Shown here piece by piece: positions 26,852 to 57,600 of a stretch of DNA of 64,000 nucleotides (position 1 is its first letter; each line of letters starts with the position of its first letter). A model generated the notes under the pieces. The model was not told the DNA's origin, ran no database searches, and saw nothing but the letters and a program-made list of their open reading frames with translations. This DNA comes from a virus, in the IMG/VR virus record IMGVR_UViG_3300020472_000011, positions 52,052 to 116,051 of that record; one strand, written 5' to 3'. Position numbers and translations under genes: made by a program.

Positions 26852-27019
26852 TTAGTTGTACTCCCAAAATGCTGGTTCACAAACCTTATCAGTCAAGGTG
26901 TTGTAATCCTCGTTGTTAACATTCTCTGGAAGACCCATATCGTTGAAGTATCTTATTATCTCAACCAATGCAGTCTCCTCTGCTTCGGTGATACTTAAGG
27001 TGCGAATCGTTTCAGACAT
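26852..27019 (-). CDS. Hypothetical acidic protein (55 aa)
   Basis: ATG at 27019, TAA at 26852-26854. MSETIRTLSITEAEETALVE then IIRYFNDMGLPENVNNEDYN. An acidic N-terminal helix followed by a loop-rich C-terminus ending PAFWEYN. First of three adjacent genes. Too short to assign. Confidence 0.6.
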   Translation of the reverse strand: MSETIRTLSITEAEETALVEIIRYFNDMGLPENVNNEDYNTLTDKVCEPAFWEYN

Positions 27020-27064
27020 GTAATAGAAAAAATGTGTGATAGAGAGGACTTACAACTTCAAAAC

Positions 27065-27193
27065 TCAAGCAACTAAGTTGACAGTTTCAAACTGTGAGTA
27101 CAAGAGGTCTCCAAACATAAAGAGCAGTTTTCCACAGCGTGACCCGAAGATCATCTGATTGTTGCTCACCCCTGCCTTGCGTTTGCCTCTCAT
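27065..27193 (-). CDS. Small basic protein (42 aa)
   Basis: ATG at 27193 with TATAAT only six bases upstream (27205-27200); TGA at 27065-27067. MRGKRKAGVSNNQMIFGSRC then GKLLFMFGDLLYSQFETVNL. A basic N-terminus precedes a hydrophobic stretch. An ACAGTTT-C-AAACTGT dyad lies within its last codons (27081-27095). A later start at M14 is possible if leaderless translation does not occur. Confidence 0.5.
   Translation of the reverse strand: MRGKRKAGVSNNQMIFGSRCGKLLFMFGDLLYSQFETVNLVA
27081..27095. repeat. Dyad ACAGTTT-C-AAACTGT inside a gene end
   Basis: Perfect 7-bp arms with a one-base centre, 14 bases before the stop of the 42-residue gene. It shares the CAGTT/AACTG arms of the stop-codon dyad family but lacks the 4-base TGTN loop, so membership is uncertain. 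Confidence 0.4.
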
Positions 27194-34802: not shown

Positions 34803-34999
34803 ACTGGTCTCCGTAAGGTCGTTAAGTATTCTAATACATGTGCTCTTACTTCCATCAGTTCGTTGAAACACTTCTGATTATGAGCACAACCACGTAACTG
34901 GTTATCAGGTTTGTGTACTGATTCTATGTATAAATCCAGTCCACGATTCCATTTCTGGTCATGTGATTCATGGTCATCAATGGTCTTTTGATCTTTCAT
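34799..34999 (-). CDS. Hypothetical protein (66 aa)
   Basis: ATG at 34999 in ATGA overlap with the methyltransferase stop. MKDQKTIDDHESHDQKWNRG, LDLYIESVHKPDNQLRGCAH, NQKCFNELMEVRAHVLEYLT. Polar N-terminus and a helical C-terminus ending LRRPV. Coupled to the methyltransferase, but no motif points to a shared function. Confidence 0.6.
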   Translation of the reverse strand: MKDQKTIDDHESHDQKWNRGLDLYIESVHKPDNQLRGCAHNQKCFNELMEVRAHVLEYLTTLRRPV

Positions 35000-35775
35000 A
35001 AGAACTTCTTAAGTGGTGTGTGACGTTTAATACGATCATTTGCCATCTTAACATACTCTTCGTGAATTTCAATACCAATATACTTTCTGTCATGATCTAG
35101 ACATGATATCGCAGTAGTACCTGACCCCATGAATGGGTCTAGAACTACATCATTCACAAATGAATAGTATTGTACAATCTTATCTGATAGTTCTTTAGGG
35201 TATGGTGCTAGATGCTTTGATGTAGTCTCAGGATTAAACTGCCATACATTTGATCTTTCATAACCATCAGCAACTAATGATTGTTCTAATATATCAGGAG
35301 CATAGGAACGCACTGTCTTATCTATAAGAAATGGTGCAGGTTTCTTGAATATTAATATAGTCTCTGTAACAAGGTTTGGTTTATATGCTACTGGTTTACG
35401 ATGCTGATAGAATCCACCGTTACGATTAACAGCAGATCCTTCTGGTTTCAACCATATAATATCATCAATGTATTGCCATCCCAATCTCTCCATAATACTA
35501 AAGAAGTGGAATGGTATCGCAAGTCTCTTACTTTCATGTGCTCTTGACTCACGTGCTTGTATTACTGGTGATAAATTAACAGCACACATCCTTCCTTGTA
35601 CTGTGACTCTGTGAACTTCACGGAATATATCCTCAAGGAATTGTAGATACTTATCATATGTTGGCCACTGTGCGTATGCCTTTGCATTAAAATATGGAGG
35701 AGATGTACACGTAAGGTGTATACTATCTCCATCCATCTCAGTTAAATGATTTAATGCATCATCATGTATGATCAT
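34996..35775 (-). CDS. DNA methyltransferase (N4/N6 amino-methylase) 1
   Basis: 259 residues. Catalytic motif TSPPYF at 24-29 and SAM-binding motif DPFMGSGTT at 213-221: catalytic motif first, SAM motif last, as in the beta-type order of amino-methylases. SPPY is most common in N4-cytosine enzymes, but N6-adenine is not excluded. NVWQFNPETTSKHLAPYPKE (near 177-196) is the usual segment before motif I. No separate target-recognition domain is obvious. It overlaps the HNH gene upstream and a small gene downstream by ATGA. Probably protects phage DNA from restriction or marks it. Sequence specificity unknown. Confidence 0.9.
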   Translation of the reverse strand: MIIHDDALNHLTEMDGDSIHLTCTSPPYFNAKAYAQWPTYDKYLQFLEDIFREVHRVTVQGRMCAVNLSPVIQARESRAHESKRLAIPFHFFSIMERLGWQYIDDIIWLKPEGSAVNRNGGFYQHRKPVAYKPNLVTETILIFKKPAPFLIDKTVRSYAPDILEQSLVADGYERSNVWQFNPETTSKHLAPYPKELSDKIVQYYSFVNDVVLDPFMGSGTTAISCLDHDRKYIGIEIHEEYVKMANDRIKRHTPLKKFL

Positions 35776-36191
35776 CCAATGCTCCTCGATGATGATTTGT
35801 TACTGTTGCAGTCTCCATTTAATATTGATTTACGTCCATGACATAGTTTACAGTATGTCTTGACATTACTAGGAACATTATTATGATGATCACCATCTAA
35901 ATGGTCTAGGTCAAGACTAGTCTCAAATCCTACAAATGTGGATACAGGACATGTCCATCCTAGATGACCATCGTTGTTTTCGCAATAGTTCTTTTTATGT
36001 CTTGTAACATTAGGTCTATCAACTCCTTTCTTACGTGCAGTGGCACAACTAGAACATTCTGATTTGAATGACCAGTACTTCCACTCTCTTACCTGTACAT
36101 TATTATTACAACCATCATTGACACATGTAGGGAGTGTGTGTCCTTCAGAAAAGAATCTTGCTTTTTGTTGTTGTGATACTGTAGAAGGCAT
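35772..36191 (-). CDS. HNH-type zinc nuclease-like protein (139 aa)
   Basis: The C-terminal half holds the HNH-type core: DLDHLDGDHHNN (94-105), N109 and CKLCHGRKS (114-122). C23/C28 and C46/C49 in the first half could bind another zinc. The order resembles small HNH proteins of cyanophages that lie next to modification genes. It could be a homing or nicking endonuclease, or a restriction partner of the adjoining methyltransferase, with which it overlaps by ATGA. Activity is inferred. Confidence 0.72.
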   Translation of the reverse strand: MPSTVSQQQKARFFSEGHTLPTCVNDGCNNNVQVREWKYWSFKSECSSCATARKKGVDRPNVTRHKKNYCENNDGHLGWTCPVSTFVGFETSLDLDHLDGDHHNNVPSNVKTYCKLCHGRKSILNGDCNSNKSSSRSIG

Positions 36192-36210
36192 CGTTTAAAA
36201 TATAATGGGG

Positions 36211-36415
36211 TGTTGAGAGAAACGTGGGGCAATGATCTAGGTTTCACCCAGTTGCCCAAATTTACCCTATGGGAATCGCTTACACCTGAACCCCCACCAC
36301 TTTCAACCATCTGTCATGTGCAGTAATAGGTTTCTACCAACGGTCATGTGTCTGCTTCTAAGTCAGACTAGTCAGTAGGTTTGGGGCATAGGAACCACAT
36401 CAGTTCCTCTCAACA
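36211..36415. ncRNA. Candidate structured RNA with pairing ends
   Basis: A 227-base gene-free stretch. Its borders are a perfect 9-bp inverted repeat, TGTTGAGAG (36211-36219) and CTCTCAACA (36407-36415). Possible inner helices are GTGGGG/CCCCAC (36224-36229 with 36292-36297), GGAAC/GTTCC (36391-36395 with 36403-36407, sharing one base with the outer stem), CCC-TAT-GGG (36265-36273) and AGGT/ACCT. The segment looks more GC-rich than its surroundings. On minus, TATACT (36425-36420) lies just outside; on plus, TATAAT (36201-36206) does. Either strand could be transcribed; minus agrees with all neighbours. No known RNA family recognised. Confidence 0.45.
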
Positions 36416-36418
36416 TTC

Positions 36419-37351
36419 TTAGTATAACGGTAATTTGTTTGGAATGGTGCGAATACGGTCACTTATTAAACTGTCATACTCCTTATGCAATTCACACCCA
36501 ATATATGCTCTACTATGTTTCTTAGCAACATATGCGGTAGTGCCACTACCCATGAACGGATCTAATACTATATCACCCTTCTCCGAACCTGCGAGGATGC
36601 ATGGTTCAATGAGTTCTTCGGGATATGTAGCAAAGTGAGCACCCTTGTATGGTTTCTTATTTACTGACCAGACAGAGCGTTTATTGCGTTTTGTATATGA
36701 TTTTGTAAGACCTGTATGCGGTTGGAGTCCTGTTCCTGGATTGTGGTACTTACCATTTGTTCTGTCTCTTGTTCCCCAGTCTTTTGCTGGTTCTTTGATT
36801 GCTTCGTTATCATAGTGATAGTATTTACTCTTACTTAGTAAAAAGATATACTCATGTGCTTTAGTACAACGATCTCTAACTGACTCTGGCATTGGATTAG
36901 GTTTATGCCATATAATATCCTGCCTTAGATACCAACCATCAGCACGTAGTGCAAATGCAAGCATCCAAGGTATACCAATAAGATCTTTATCTTTGTATCC
37001 TACAAGTTTATTAGATCTACGTGGTGTAGTCTTAGGTAAGTCTTGTCTATTATTAGAGAATGTCTGCTTAGGTATACATCCATCCTTCCTGTAATTATAA
37101 TATGAATCACCAATGTTTAACCACAGTGTACCATCATCAGTAAGACAATCTCTTACTAAACGAAAGACCTTAACCATATTATCAATATACTCTTCAGGTG
37201 ATTGTTCCTGACCTAACTGTTTATCTTCATCACCATAGTTTCTCAAACCATAGTAAGGTGGAGATGTGACACACATACGTGCCTTCTGTTCTTCATTTGC
37301 AATTATCTTGAGTGATTCAAGACAGTCACCAAATAATATGTAATCTTTCAT
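36419..37351 (-). CDS. DNA methyltransferase (N4/N6 amino-methylase) 2
   Basis: 310 residues. TSPPYYGLRNYG at 29-40 (catalytic motif IV) and DPFMGSGTT at about 264-272 (SAM-binding motif I) near the C-terminus, again the beta-type order. SPPYYGLRNYG is a frequent signature of type II/III-like site-specific amino-methylases. DGTLWLNIGDSYY (near 93-105) and IIWHKPNPMPESVRDR (near 145-160) fit the family. It has no cognate nuclease overlapping it. Clearly different in sequence from the other methylase of the window, so the two probably recognise different sites. Confidence 0.92.
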   Translation of the reverse strand: MKDYILFGDCLESLKIIANEEQKARMCVTSPPYYGLRNYGDEDKQLGQEQSPEEYIDNMVKVFRLVRDCLTDDGTLWLNIGDSYYNYRKDGCIPKQTFSNNRQDLPKTTPRRSNKLVGYKDKDLIGIPWMLAFALRADGWYLRQDIIWHKPNPMPESVRDRCTKAHEYIFLLSKSKYYHYDNEAIKEPAKDWGTRDRTNGKYHNPGTGLQPHTGLTKSYTKRNKRSVWSVNKKPYKGAHFATYPEELIEPCILAGSEKGDIVLDPFMGSGTTAYVAKKHSRAYIGCELHKEYDSLISDRIRTIPNKLPLY

Positions 37352-38798: not shown

Positions 38799-41700
38799 TT
38801 AGAAAGCTTTGATCAAGTACTTGCATAATGTGTATGGTGTAAGCAATGGAACATCTATATCAGGGTCAATGGTGGCCTGTGGTTCTATCTTAGTAGTTGA
38901 TTTTAATGTCAACGTTGCTTCAGATGGTGATGCACCAGAACTATATGTAATACCTGGTCCAGTCTCACCTTGAATAGTATATGATAGTGAATCAACAGCA
39001 GGTTTACTGATCTTACCAGCAGTAGCAACAAATACAAGACCTGTTACCTTCTCATTCCAATAAATGAATTCACATATACCATAATGGTCACTGTCTGCAT
39101 CATTATCATTAGCAGCACTAGGTGTAGCACGTGGTTGTTCAATCTTTATCTTAGTACCAACTGCTTTAGCATCTGTTGGTAATGCTACTGAATAAGTATA
39201 CCATTTAGTATCACCACTACCACCATCCCAAGATGTACCTACTATAGGAACATCACCAATGATAGGATCAGTTCTAACTGAGTTTGGTGTGATAATAGTA
39301 TCAATCAATGTCCATCCAGTTGAATCAGCTGCCTGAAAATATACACGCAACACTTCTTCTGGTACATTACCACCATTAACACCATTACCTCTACATGCTT
39401 TGATTGAGAAGTAATTTGTGTTGGTAGTATCAACTGGTTTCAATTCAATGAATCTTGTGCCAGTTGAACCACTGAGACCACCAAACTTGACATAGTTGGT
39501 ATATACCTGTGAACTATTAGCAGCAAGGAATAATGCATCAACATTTTCTGCTTGTGTATCAATGGTGGATGTGACCTTAGTTTTTCCACCAGCACCATTC
39601 ATAACATAAACGTATGGTATCTCTGTATATCCAGCACCAGAAGAATCTAAACTGACTGCTGTTACTTTACTATTTGCTACAGTTACTGATGCTTGAGCAG
39701 CAGTGGTAGCACCACCACCAACAATATAAACATCTGGTACTTGTGTGGTTGGTAGTTTGAAATCACCAGCAGCACCTGTACCACCACCATTACCAACAAT
39801 ATTTACATCCCATACTGTTGATGTTTGTGATCCAGATGTAATGATATCACCTTCTGATATACCTGTTGATCCACCAGTATATCCAACAATCTTACCTAAT
39901 CCAATTTTAGCGTATCCACTTTCAGCACTACTTGTAGTACCAGTGGTTTGTCCACCTGGATTTATACCTAAACCTGCACCACCAACTGTTACTGATATAG
40001 ATCCAGGATTGTTTAACCAAGTCCAATCAATATCACCAGCCCAGAGAGCACCGCCACCGCCACCACCTCCTCCAGAGGTCCAGTAGTCATTATTATATAC
40101 AGCAGTTATATTAGCCCAACCATTACCATTATTAGTTCCACCATAATCATTTGAATGACTAAATGAATTGAGAGTGAAGTAATCAGTACGATAGGAACTA
40201 ACTCCTGATTGTCCTGAACCACCACCTTGGTGTCCTCCGTCTCCACCAGGAGCACCTCCAGGACCACCTGATGCACCACCGTTTCCTATACCACCAAATG
40301 TAATACCGTTTCTGGCGACTCCTGAGCCACCGCCACCGCCTCCACCACCGATACATCCGTAGTGTCCACCTGTACCACCGCCACCTGGACCAAGTGCCTG
40401 TGTTGTGCCGTCTGGTTGAGAATATCCTGATGGTGGTCCTGATCCATTCACACCAGCACCTCCGTCATATCCAGATGCACCAGCACCACCACCTCCTCCA
40501 GCACCAATTAATATTTGTGTACCTCTCTTAATCATAGAGGATCCACCTCCACCTCCACCATCTGCTTCTTGGTGTCCTTCACCACCATATCCACCATTAC
40601 CACCAGCAGTTGAACTACCATTCATTCTACCACCAGCAGCAGTACCACGTACAAATGACCATCCACCTGCATAGAATCCTTCTAACTCATCTGACACCAT
40701 ATCAACAACAATGGTTGCACCATTATATCCTGTGTAACCACCACGACCAGCAGCTCCACCTTTACCTCCATTAAGAGTTATTTGTACTGATGTTGGATTT
40801 GCTACAGCTCCTGTGTTAAATGAACCATCTGATGTAAGAGTTTCAGTATATGTACCACTCTGTCCACCTTGTAATAGGTTTATACCAGCAGTACCAGCAC
40901 CATATCCATTACCATTTCCAGCACCACCAGCACCACCACCGTCAGGATTATCTGGGTAGTCTACTAATGGGAAACCATCTGGAGTTTGACCATTACCACC
41001 AGTACCACCTGTCTGACCATCAAAACTACCAGTAGCATAGATAGCAGCACTTCCAGATTCAGCTGCTGTTCCTCCTATACCACCAGCTCCCCCTATTTGA
41101 CCATTAGAAGCTCCACCTTTCGCTCCACCTTCAGCAGTTAATGTCAACACACTACCAACTGTCATTACAGTGTCACCACCATCATTACCTTGAACATTAC
41201 CAGCAGCACCTGATCCTCCACCACCTACAAGTTCATAGATCAGTTTGTCAGGTGTACCAGTTATATTTCCTAAGTTTATGGAGTATGATCCAGCTGAGGT
41301 AAATTCCCACTCATCTGAATAATCATACACAGGAGTACCACCAGTATTAACTGCTCTACCACCAATCTGTGATGATCCAGTGAATATACTCATGGTTGGA
41401 TCTGGTATATAAGTTTGAAACTCATATGTACCAGCGTCAGAAGCACCTGATGCCATGTAGAATTGTTCAGTAGAAGCTACAGTTGGATCTTTAAGTGATC
41501 CACAACCACCAGCACCACCAACTGCATCAAATACATCATAGGTAGCAATAGTATTATCTGTAATAGGATTTCTTAACAGTCCATGCTTGTGTGTGAATAC
41601 AATACCACCAGTAGGATACCATCTACTTAATCTACCTCTACCTTCACGATAGTCTTGGAGATATCTATCACCTGATGATTCTGCTTGATAGATATTAAAT

Positions 41701-42617
41701 CCTGGTTGTGCATGATACACTGAATGATTATGTTGGAACACACCAGAGATTTTAGTCTCTCTCATAGATATCTCAACCTGTTGCTGTCCTATCATTGAAC
41801 ACTCAACAGTCTCAACAACATTCTCATATCCAGTAGTAACTATTCTACCAAGTGAAAAGAATTCATCTTGTTGTTCCTTAGCAAGATACCATGCACCACC
41901 TGTAGTACCAACACCAAGTTGTGAGTTACCTATGTTAGGTGAGTTCTGACCAAATACAGGACCATTACCAACTACTTTCTTAGTAACCATATCAGGTACA
42001 CAGAATGTTCCTAAGTATGGGTCACCCCACATGTCCAATACATTAACAGTAGTGATGCCTAGTATTGAACCTTCTTCATCTAATCTTACAGCAAATGATG
42101 CACCACTTCCACCACCACCACTCAATGTTAATGTTGGTGCTGATGTGTATCCCTTACCAGCAAGAAGAACATTAATCTGTTTTATTTTACCTGCTTCAAC
42201 AATAGCCTGACATGTTGCTGTTACTCCACCAGCAGGAGGAGCAGAAATTGTTATTGAAGGAGCAGATGTGTAACCTGATCCACCATCAACTACATCAATG
42301 CCACTACTAGATCTACCACCATACTTATTACCAAGTATTTCAAATAAACTTGGAAAATCACTTATATTATACTCAGAACCATCACAATAAAGATAACCAT
42401 GATGTGTATATGCAGGGTCATCACCTAATAGATATGCATCACCAGCAGATTCTGTTAATATTGGGAATGCTGTAGCACCATACTTAACAAAACTATGGTC
42501 GAATGAATTCTGACCAGTTTTTAAATTGGGTACAATAGCACCCACTGGTGTAGTATCTACGGTAAGATCTGTGTAGAATCCTTGTCTAGGATTTCTATAT
42601 GCTTGAGAGACGGTCAT
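38799..42617 (-). CDS. Tail-collar fibre protein with long glycine-rich domain
   Basis: 1,272 residues, ATGA overlap with the previous collar gene. The N-terminal collar domain shows VGAIVPNLKT (about 27), then GYLYCDGSEYNISDFPSLFE and ILGNKYGG (about 74-101). Two GxGYTSAPTxT units follow (about 112-170). Residues about 455-900 are extremely Gly-rich (runs such as GGGGGGGSG and GGTGGNG), similar in composition to phage adhesin polyglycine regions. The C-terminus has a GAGYTEIPYVYV unit, a beta domain, and ends PYTLCKYLIKAF, parallel to its two neighbours. Probably a receptor-binding or fibre-tip protein. The Gly-rich function is inferred. Confidence 0.82.
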   Translation of the reverse strand: MTVSQAYRNPRQGFYTDLTVDTTPVGAIVPNLKTGQNSFDHSFVKYGATAFPILTESAGDAYLLGDDPAYTHHGYLYCDGSEYNISDFPSLFEILGNKYGGRSSSGIDVVDGGSGYTSAPSITISAPPAGGVTATCQAIVEAGKIKQINVLLAGKGYTSAPTLTLSGGGGSGASFAVRLDEEGSILGITTVNVLDMWGDPYLGTFCVPDMVTKKVVGNGPVFGQNSPNIGNSQLGVGTTGGAWYLAKEQQDEFFSLGRIVTTGYENVVETVECSMIGQQQVEISMRETKISGVFQHNHSVYHAQPGFNIYQAESSGDRYLQDYREGRGRLSRWYPTGGIVFTHKHGLLRNPITDNTIATYDVFDAVGGAGGCGSLKDPTVASTEQFYMASGASDAGTYEFQTYIPDPTMSIFTGSSQIGGRAVNTGGTPVYDYSDEWEFTSAGSYSINLGNITGTPDKLIYELVGGGGSGAAGNVQGNDGGDTVMTVGSVLTLTAEGGAKGGASNGQIGGAGGIGGTAAESGSAAIYATGSFDGQTGGTGGNGQTPDGFPLVDYPDNPDGGGAGGAGNGNGYGAGTAGINLLQGGQSGTYTETLTSDGSFNTGAVANPTSVQITLNGGKGGAAGRGGYTGYNGATIVVDMVSDELEGFYAGGWSFVRGTAAGGRMNGSSTAGGNGGYGGEGHQEADGGGGGGSSMIKRGTQILIGAGGGGGAGASGYDGGAGVNGSGPPSGYSQPDGTTQALGPGGGGTGGHYGCIGGGGGGGGSGVARNGITFGGIGNGGASGGPGGAPGGDGGHQGGGSGQSGVSSYRTDYFTLNSFSHSNDYGGTNNGNGWANITAVYNNDYWTSGGGGGGGGALWAGDIDWTWLNNPGSISVTVGGAGLGINPGGQTTGTTSSAESGYAKIGLGKIVGYTGGSTGISEGDIITSGSQTSTVWDVNIVGNGGGTGAAGDFKLPTTQVPDVYIVGGGATTAAQASVTVANSKVTAVSLDSSGAGYTEIPYVYVMNGAGGKTKVTSTIDTQAENVDALFLAANSSQVYTNYVKFGGLSGSTGTRFIELKPVDTTNTNYFSIKACRGNGVNGGNVPEEVLRVYFQAADSTGWTLIDTIITPNSVRTDPIIGDVPIVGTSWDGGSGDTKWYTYSVALPTDAKAVGTKIKIEQPRATPSAANDNDADSDHYGICEFIYWNEKVTGLVFVATAGKISKPAVDSLSYTIQGETGPGITYSSGASPSEATLTLKSTTKIEPQATIDPDIDVPLLTPYTLCKYLIKAF

Positions 42618-54600: not shown

Positions 54601-57600
54601 TAGATCAACAACATCATCAATACAATCTTGATTGTGATACTGTTGATTACCAGCAACTGTGAATACTTTGTGTATGGAATTGTTTACTGCACTAACAAAC
54701 TTATGGAAGTAAGAACCACCAGTTTGAATAGCACCAGCAGACGCACTCTTGAATTGGTGTGGATACTGATTAGATAGAGTAGCAACACCTACATTAACTG
54801 TAAATGTTCCAGTTTCTTTCTGAACATTACCAGCAACTGATCTTACAAATGTATGATTAGCAGTAGGATAATGTCTGATTGAATTAGCAGTAGCACTTAC
54901 AAATGTATGTGGTGATGCTGGTTCGAAATGAACAGCATTAGCAACAGAATTTACAAATGTATGAGTATATCTCTGGTTGTAGATGATAGCATTAGCAGTT
55001 GCATTAACAAAGGTATGATCATACTGATCATTAGCAGCAGCTGCACCAACATTAACTGTAATTGTTGTAGTTGTAGCATCCTTAATTTCTATATCACTAT
55101 TGTATGCTGGATCAGTAACTCTAGGATATGAGTGGTTAGTTGCATTAGCATCTTTAGCACACTGGAATGTTAAAGAATCAGGTGCTATCTTAATCTTCTC
55201 ACCATTTTGTAGATCATGTACTCCAATAGTAAGAGTCATATCACCAGTGATTGCATTATAAGATGCAGCAGTAGGAGTATAGTTAGTTAATTGTGAAGCA
55301 CCAATATTAACTGTAACAGTTCCATTCTGTCTATGTAATCCATTAGCAACAGCAGATACAAATGAATGTACTGACTTATCCTGAGAAATACCTACATTAA
55401 CTTCAAATGTATTAGTAGTCTTATCAGCAATCTTCAACCACCTTGAACTTACAGGGTCAAATCCTGCCCGTGGATATTTTTTCTGACTTACGTTACCATC
55501 AAGGTCACATGTCAGTGTTAAAGATTCATCATCTAACTTAATATAATCACCATTAGAGAATCCATGATTGTTAACTGTTAGTTTAAGAACACCTGTCTCA
55601 GGAGTATATTCTGCACCACTAACACTATGCATAGATGCACCAACACTATTAACAGTGATTGATTTTTCACCTGCATATGGATCTATTCCAGGACGTGGGT
55701 AACTATGGTTAGAAGTATGATTATCCTTAGAACATGTAAAGGTTAGTGAATTATCCTTAAGAATAATACCTGCACCTTCACGAAGACCATGCTGACCTAT
55801 TGTAAGAATAAGATCACCAGTGGTTGAGTTATAGTCAGCAGCACTAGGAGTCCATGTCTGATTATCTCCAGCATTACCAACATTAACTGTAATTGTATTT
55901 GCAGTCCTAGCAATAATATCTACAGATCTTCCAGATACTCTATCACTAGCAGTCTGACGTGTGATTCCATCAGCAACACCACTTATAAATGCATGTGTGT
56001 CTGTGTTAGTAGAAGGTAAAGCTTCAAGACATTGGAACTCAAATGAATCAACACCTGTCTCTGTTACCTTAATCCATGTACCACTTACAGGATCACTAGG
56101 ACGTGGATATGATTTCTCAGCAGCAGTACCTGTTGCTCCATTAAATCCACAACTGAATGTTAGAGCACCATCAGCGATCTTAACAAAGTCACCAGTTTTT
56201 AATCCATGATTAGCAGTTGTTGTAATAGAAACAATACCTGTTGTAGGATTATATGTTGTGCCAGTAGTTGCAGTAAGACCTTTAGATGCTGGACGTGGAT
56301 AAAGTTTATTGGACTGCTCTTCATCCATCTGACACTTAAATGTCAGTGAGTTATCATCAATAGTAATACCATCACCAACTGCAAGAGAATGACTACCAAT
56401 TGTTAGAGTAAGATCTCCAGTTGCAGGATCATAATTTGCTCCTGTTGGTGTAAATACATTCTCGGTTATGTCAGCAGTTACAGCACCATAATCAGCAGAA
56501 ACAAATGTATGACCATAGTTACCACCACTGGTTATAGCGTCAGCAGTTGCAGAGACAAATGCATGAACAGTAGTGTTAGAAGACTTACCAACATCAAGAG
56601 TAATTGTTGTTGCTGTTACAGCTGTAATATCTACAGGTGAATCATAAGACTTATCTTTCTTCTGAGTAATACCACCAGCGACAGCAGATACAAATGTATG
56701 ATCTGTAGTGTTGGTTGAAGGTGCAGAATCTAATACTTGGATATCAAATGTATTTGTCTGTGTATTAGAAATCTTAACCCACTTGTTACTGATAGGATCA
56801 GATGCTCTTGGGTATGTGTGGTTAGTAGCATGACTATCTTGAGCACATGTAAATGTTAGAGAATCATCTGCTAACTTAACCCAATCACCATCACGCATTC
56901 CGTGACCAGCAACAGTAACTGTAATGATACCAGTATCAGGATCATAGGCAGCCATGGTTGCTGTATGACTTTCAATTGTTGTTCTAGGATATGCATGGTT
57001 AGTAGCATTATTGTCCTGACCACATGTGAATGTGACTCCAGCATCAGCAATCTTAACAGACTCACCAACAGTTAGGTTATGAGAACCAATGGTCAATGTC
57101 ATTAAACCATTTGCAGGATCAAAAGATGCATCCGTTGGAGTGTGACTGACTAAAGGTGAAGCACCAACATTAACTGTAACTGTTGTAGCATCAGCAGCAG
57201 TAACTACTGTACCTGTTGAGTAGATAGGATCACTAGAACGAGGATAAGTCTTAATGTCAGAAGTACCACCCATTGCACAACGGAACTTCAATGAATCCTG
57301 TGCTATAGTAATATTCTTACCAACAGGAATGTTATGATTAGGAATAGTCAATACTAACTGACCAGTTGCAGCTGTGTATGTGGCAGCAGTAGGTGTATAT
57401 GTTTGAGAAGCACCAGCCTGACCAACATTAACTTTGAAAGTATTTGTTGTTGCATCAGAAATTACTAACCACTTACCATTGCTAGGATCTTTAAGTCTTG
57501 GATATGCATGCTCAGTTGCATGGTTATCCATATCACATGTAAATGTGAGTGATCCATCAGCAATTTTAATTCTATCACCATTGGTGAATCCATGATTAGC

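Follow-up and report, generated by a model that had tools for sequence, protein, structure and literature searches.

Structured RNAs have been described both beside HNH genes and at the 5' ends of messages: HEARO, the omega RNA of IscB, adjoins an HNH gene, and the ompA leader stabilises its mRNA by a 5' stem, a helix at or adjoining the 5' end of the message. The nearest known kind to the RNA reported here is, however, that of the cyanophage cis-regulatory RNAs manA and wcaG, and it is neither of the two. Both are described as cis-regulatory candidates in cyanophages, manA being found in potential 5' UTRs and wcaG being a 98-position element of marine metagenomes and cyanophages (PMC2864571), and three other papers list manA, wcaG, glnA, abiF and other RNAs in cyanophages (PMC9964418, PMC10665884, PMC12197685). 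The manA model (RF01745) matched in 6 of the 15 records that we searched, once in each, and not in the record of the locus studied here; the six copies directly follow a TATAAT-like box and, as in our case, belong to T4-like cyanophages, but the recurring core of our RNA, labelled R1, stays below the gathering score of the manA covariance model and gives no match even at E<=10. The wcaG model (RF01761) was above its cut-off in 1 of the 15 records, with none in the record of this locus or in P-SSM2, and R1 does not match it either; ten module patterns, searched in the six manA loci and in the one wcaG locus checked, were found in none. Using the gathering thresholds of Rfam 15, which presumably covers introns, HEARO and riboswitches, we obtained no family match in the window (the whole stretch of 64,000 nucleotides analysed) and none in 14 related loci bar a tRNA elsewhere, and at E<=10 neither the segment nor its P-SSM2 relative (311 and 461 bases searched) matched any family. 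Membership of a known Rfam family is ruled out at both levels, the earlier note's remark that the segment resembled no family known to its author stands against Rfam 15, and R1 is a new RNA family outside Rfam. The literature searched, which covered few subscription papers, describes neither R1 nor an exchange of modules.

The window derives from a 116-kb virus record, kin to Prochlorococcus T4-like phages, of a T4-like marine cyanophage. From the ORF list and protein matches, an N6/N4 DNA methylase gene (310 aa, 36419..37351, minus strand) lies upstream and a gene for an HNH-endonuclease-like protein (139 aa, 35772..36191, minus strand) lies downstream of a gap that runs from the methylase stop to the HNH start and spans exactly 36192-36418, or 227 bases. 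The ORFs that run across it are short and mechanical (73 aa on the minus strand, 38 aa on the plus strand), which upholds the initial observation that it holds no convincing gene. Two related N6/N4 methylase genes (34999-35775 and 36422-37351, minus strand) flank the HNH gene together with the RNA, and further along, at 38799-42617 on the minus strand, the window encodes a 1272-aa glycine-rich protein with matches to virion structural and tail fibre families.

Similarity searches retrieved pieces of the segment from unannotated gaps of other cyanophages, including P-SSM2 and P-SSM5, and a 21-base core pattern matched at least 119 viral-contig stretches, the R1 core being present in P-SSM2 as well. 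Together with other loci these yielded 122 distinct copies of R1 (114 under stricter de-duplication), about one per genome record. A host origin was rejected, as the exact 21-base core had no match in genome contigs, a search that inexact copies would escape, and R1 had no match in plasmids. Covariation was assessed in 32 compact copies, selected for a short arm 1, on which a six-helix fold leaves 99.1% of 957 base-pair cells paired as against 88.5% in shuffles. Here 12 pairs and 119 cells are changed on both sides, and none of 500 shuffles reached 99.1% paired or 12 such pairs; when the structure was slid along the alignment as a control, the paired share dropped to 27.6-58.3%. In helix P3, four pairs are doubly changed in 9 to 20 sequences apiece, and none of their cells is broken. 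The nine full-length copies of the window's own type behave alike, with 440 of 440 cells paired and both sides changed in 10 pairs and 31 cells, a number of cells that 0 of 500 shuffles reached and a number of pairs that 5 of 500 did. The compensatory changes for which a covariance check had been proposed are thus present in both alignments, and the suggestion of a structured RNA of roughly 205 bases is borne out.

Folding of the single sequence against shuffled controls, also proposed at the outset, gave a more modest result: the minus strand is somewhat better than its shuffles (z of -1.98 over 227 nt and of -2.02 over 205 nt) and the plus strand is not (-0.28 and +0.14), while the minimum free energy fold (-67.1) differs from the comparative one, which scores -60.1 when forced. 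That the single-sequence z is only about -2 is what could be said for a chance structure or an assembly artefact, an explanation that we regard as barely conceivable in view of at least 119 contig stretches, the isolate genomes P-SSM2 and P-SSM5 and the covariation in both alignments. The strand, which had been left open, is narrowed to the minus strand by these z values and by the G-U pairs, which make sense on that strand only; at P1 columns 7/121, for instance, 11 of the 32 compact copies carry a G-U pair that would read A-C on the plus strand, and an RNA from the plus strand is ruled out. The segment is therefore a conserved structured RNA of the minus strand, for which the comparative evidence is strong and that from single-sequence folding modest.

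The window RNA, an R1 core with an F-type arm, measures about 203 nt from the first to the last base of its closing helix P1 (36212..36414, minus strand). In the comparative fold P1 joins RNA 1-12 (36403..36414) to RNA 192-203 (36212..36223) by 12 consecutive pairs, 11 Watson-Crick and one G-U, so that the complementarity noticed earlier between the ends is real and its length is 12 pairs and not 9 bases. Covariation defines the next three helices: P2 (36396..36398 with 36224-36226), which is of GUG/CAC or ACG/CGU type in relatives; P3 (36387..36392 with 36266-36271), where compensatory changes are strongest; and P4 (CCCC at 36383..36386 with GGGG at 36292-36295), which closes the exchangeable arm 1. 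This arm holds the F module (36334..36378), made of P6 (RNA 37-44/74-81) and P7 (RNA 47-51/61-65) with internal loops UA/ACAUGA and GAC..AGAAGC, then the P8/P9 hairpin (RNA 83-110, 36305..36332) of the comparative fold, and, between RNA 112 and 113 (36302..36303), the site at which the relative L003 has an exact 40-nt hairpin insertion. In the alignment, P4 is followed by the conserved unpaired block GUUCAGGUGUAAGCGAUUCC (36272..36291), whose 20 nt formed part of the pattern used to fetch the copies, so that some of its invariance was built in; the covarying helices lie outside that pattern. A second conserved block, GUAAAUUU (36258..36265), and arm 2, the P5 hairpin GGGCA..GGUGAAACC..UGCCC (36227..36257), supported by alignment and covariation, complete the fold; all these elements are on the minus strand. 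The sequence GTCATGTG does occur twice, as had been remarked, at 36313 and 36343; the latter copy is within the conserved part, whereas the former falls in a loop that varies, with other sequence in L216, L005, L197 and L228. As only the second copy is in the conserved part the repeat is incidental, and a functional repeat, not being conserved among relatives, is ruled out.

The sequence surroundings of R1 favour a 5' mRNA leader over a free-standing RNA: its start is usually about 7 nt past a -10-like box, and a same-strand gene follows its end. In the window the box is TATACT (36421..36426, minus strand), which overlaps the last methylase codons; 6 bases separate its end from P1, which starts 7 nt downstream, and the same spacing is seen in relatives. 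A -10-like hexamer had been proposed on each side of the segment: the one on the methylase side is retained, with its common spacing, and that on the HNH side proved to be mere AT-rich spacer (36192..36211, minus strand) between P1 and the HNH start codon. A consensus promoter scan called no promoter at the RNA start (36414), TATACT included, and a scan of 35700-36700 found no terminator. We compared 90 distinct upstream 40-mers (20 of the 122 copies were left out and 1 was at an edge), and TANNNT ends 6-8 nt before P1 in 53 of them, another module stands in tandem in 10, and four fit no type, although one of these, L172, resembles by eye the first promoter type. The remaining 23 have a second conserved sequence, GGGGGGACGCATAAAGTGTCCTTATAG-like and just before the RNA (for example in L149, L153, L217 and L223), which is perhaps a separate phage promoter type.

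On the other side, 95 copies had at least 600 nt downstream, and the longest ORF starting within 350 nt, with start codons as predicted, was on the same strand in 67, on the opposite strand in 10 and on neither in 18, a clear same-strand ORF just downstream being missing in 28 of the 95. In the 67 same-strand cases the next gene begins 21-348 nt away, and the genes concerned are diverse. In P-SSM2, two adjacent multi-module leaders, unannotated in the record, precede genes in the gaps PSSM2_068-070 and 070-071 (L140 / L280); R1 of this isolate occupies 56699-56819, with PSSM2_071 as its downstream gene. A promoter-like box and a same-strand gene thus accompany R1 in most copies, not in all. 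Such a position, together with conserved unpaired blocks amid strongly varying helices, would also suit a ligand-binding riboswitch in which GUUCAGGUGUAAGCGAUUCC and GUAAAUUU form an aptamer controlling translation of the downstream gene, and a cis-regulatory role was proposed for manA and wcaG of cyanophages (PMC2864571). We consider a riboswitch quite unlikely, since the window shows neither a terminator nor an obvious ribosome-site switch, the downstream genes are diverse and the 20-nt block owes part of its invariance to the fetching pattern.

With respect to its neighbours, R1 is present in 6 of 57 HNH loci and absent from 51 (5 of which have less than 300 nt upstream), and it is present in 6 of 80 methylase loci and absent from 74; because most relatives of the same genes do without it, R1 is dispensable. 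These counts rule out a general link to either gene, and they also lead us to reject an HNH-linked homing element or mobile RNA, for which consistent linkage was looked for and R1 found in only those 6 of 57 loci. Although the window RNA resembles HEARO in adjoining an HNH gene, it differs in having no Rfam match, in the 51 HNH loci that lack R1 and in the neighbour itself, a protein of 139 aa whose matches are phage HNH endonucleases. The same methylase-HNH junction could be recognised in 8 of the 57 HNH loci. Four of the eight relatives carry R1 there (L003, L004, L005 and L010), with an arm of 14 nt in L010 against 95 nt in the window RNA; three have no leader and a spacer of 19-20 nt (L006, L009 and L011); and in one, L012, another leader starts at this very position. 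Occupied and empty junctions alike have the box TATACTA, which indicates that the leader unit sits between a promoter-like box, there even without it, and the gene. The early idea of a small mobile or regulatory RNA agrees with the data in part: some relatives have the unit at one orthologous junction and others lack it, and its arms are swapped, but it looks like a 5' leader and not like a free-standing RNA. Directly 3' of the leader in L012 (2293-2500), L010 (2430-2500) and others we also observed a module C (..TTTCAGG.TT..GCGATAGGAAAC..), which to the eye resembles an H-type pseudoknot that shows compensatory changes; a second form of its search pattern gave zero matches.

Arm 1, defined as the stretch between the P4 strands, could be parsed in 117 of the 122 copies and takes 68 distinct forms, two of which (over 300 nt, L154 and L221) are parsing artefacts; an 18-nt form is common to 32 copies, and many other arms are long and nested. 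This diversity, the exchange at one locus, the occurrence of about one R1 per genome record and the fact that the downstream gene is not fixed would all be in keeping with a free-standing or processed small RNA acting in trans, for instance as a bait or inhibitor of a host defence or RNA-handling protein, with arm diversity reflecting an arms race. We think this rather unlikely, as the window has no terminator after the RNA (35700-36700) and the next gene follows so closely, within 21-348 nt, in the 67 same-strand cases. The hairpin modules of R1 arms also occur in other leader scaffolds. Module a (about 52 nt) is found directly in arm 1, at the tip of P8, in the F socket, in module e and alone, while the F module occurs in at least three scaffolds (R1, R2 and R3) over 39 distinct copies, one row of which (L139, 'other') is probably spurious; R2 with its F module is present in the isolates P-SSM7 and S-SSM4 too. 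The inner loop of F is empty in 14 of the 39 copies, and 25 carry a, e, f, g, i or another module in it, so the F module of the window RNA acts in relatives as a socket. For module f, flanks complementary over at least 4 bp were present in 13 of 13 contexts (500 shuffles: mean 4.3, maximum 8). None of the others goes beyond shuffles in this test (a, 1/16; b, 4/5; e, 3/3; c, 7/10; F, 41/249), probably because the pattern boundaries miss the stem ends.

In the relative L003 the surroundings of the RNA are 93% identical to the window, and its RNA departs from the window RNA at two points in 205 nt, an exact 40-nt hairpin insertion and a single substitution. An exact insertion of this kind, presence and absence at one junction and the finding of one module at several structural sites could point to selfish mobile hairpins, spread by recombination or template switching and of no benefit to the phage; this we hold to be very unlikely, since compensatory changes reveal selection on the fold, the flanks of module f are complementary in all 13 of its contexts and most copies directly follow -10-like boxes. 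A wider proposal, possible but with the odds somewhat against it, is that marine cyanophages have a combinatorial RNA system in which scaffold leaders, R1 among others, offer sockets where hairpins of a shared library are plugged, nested and exchanged, individual genes having their own interchangeable cassettes; this would amount to domain shuffling in RNA, possibly driven by an arms race against RNases or defences of the host.

For the window RNA itself we tentatively favour, at slightly less than even confidence, the reading that it is the 5' leader of the HNH mRNA and belongs to a new cyanophage class of scaffold plus exchangeable nested hairpin modules, acting in cis as a shield of the 5' end that tunes expression. 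Transcription would probably start at or adjoining base 36414 on the minus strand, so that the first bases of the message would be locked in the 12-bp helix P1, which would close a compact multi-helix RNA with the HNH start codon 20 nt past it. The closed leader may then hide the 5' end of the mRNA from host decay that depends on that end, of the RNase E type, and hiding it could tune the expression of individual phage genes, the arms presumably varying through module insertion, loss and recombination. As a 5'-stem stabiliser the ompA-type leader is similar in that the closing helix of R1 is at or adjoining the predicted 5' end of the mRNA, but R1 is far larger and has conserved unpaired blocks and exchangeable arms. 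Sensing of 5' ends by RNase E is described in PMC10989914. In Prochlorococcus infected by the cyanophage P-SSP7, RNase E rises, and the phage transcripts are covered by antisense RNAs that guard against its attack (PMC9692554). By analogy, a 5' leader that is closed would do the work of those antisense RNAs. It counts against shielding that plain protection of a 5' end would not require long invariant unpaired blocks or elaborate arms, and the conserved unpaired blocks argue for something binding the scaffold.

R1 is a widespread RNA class absent from Rfam, with arms exchanged in the manner of domains, in a well-studied phage group whose relatives infect Prochlorococcus and Synechococcus, which are among the most abundant phototrophs. 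Its allelic series at a single junction (no leader, R1, R1 carrying other arms, another leader) would offer a natural system for the evolution of structured RNA by module insertion, and also for how phages keep messages alive amid host RNA destruction. The window has a probable second leader RNA, suggested by its sequence and a weaker case than R1, at 27042-27191 on the minus strand, where TATAAT (27205-27200) is followed by an outer helix GAGAGG/CCUCUC and the RNA ends some 20 nt short of an ATG at 27019; the loci contain its GAAGTTGTAAGTCC module at 8 further places.
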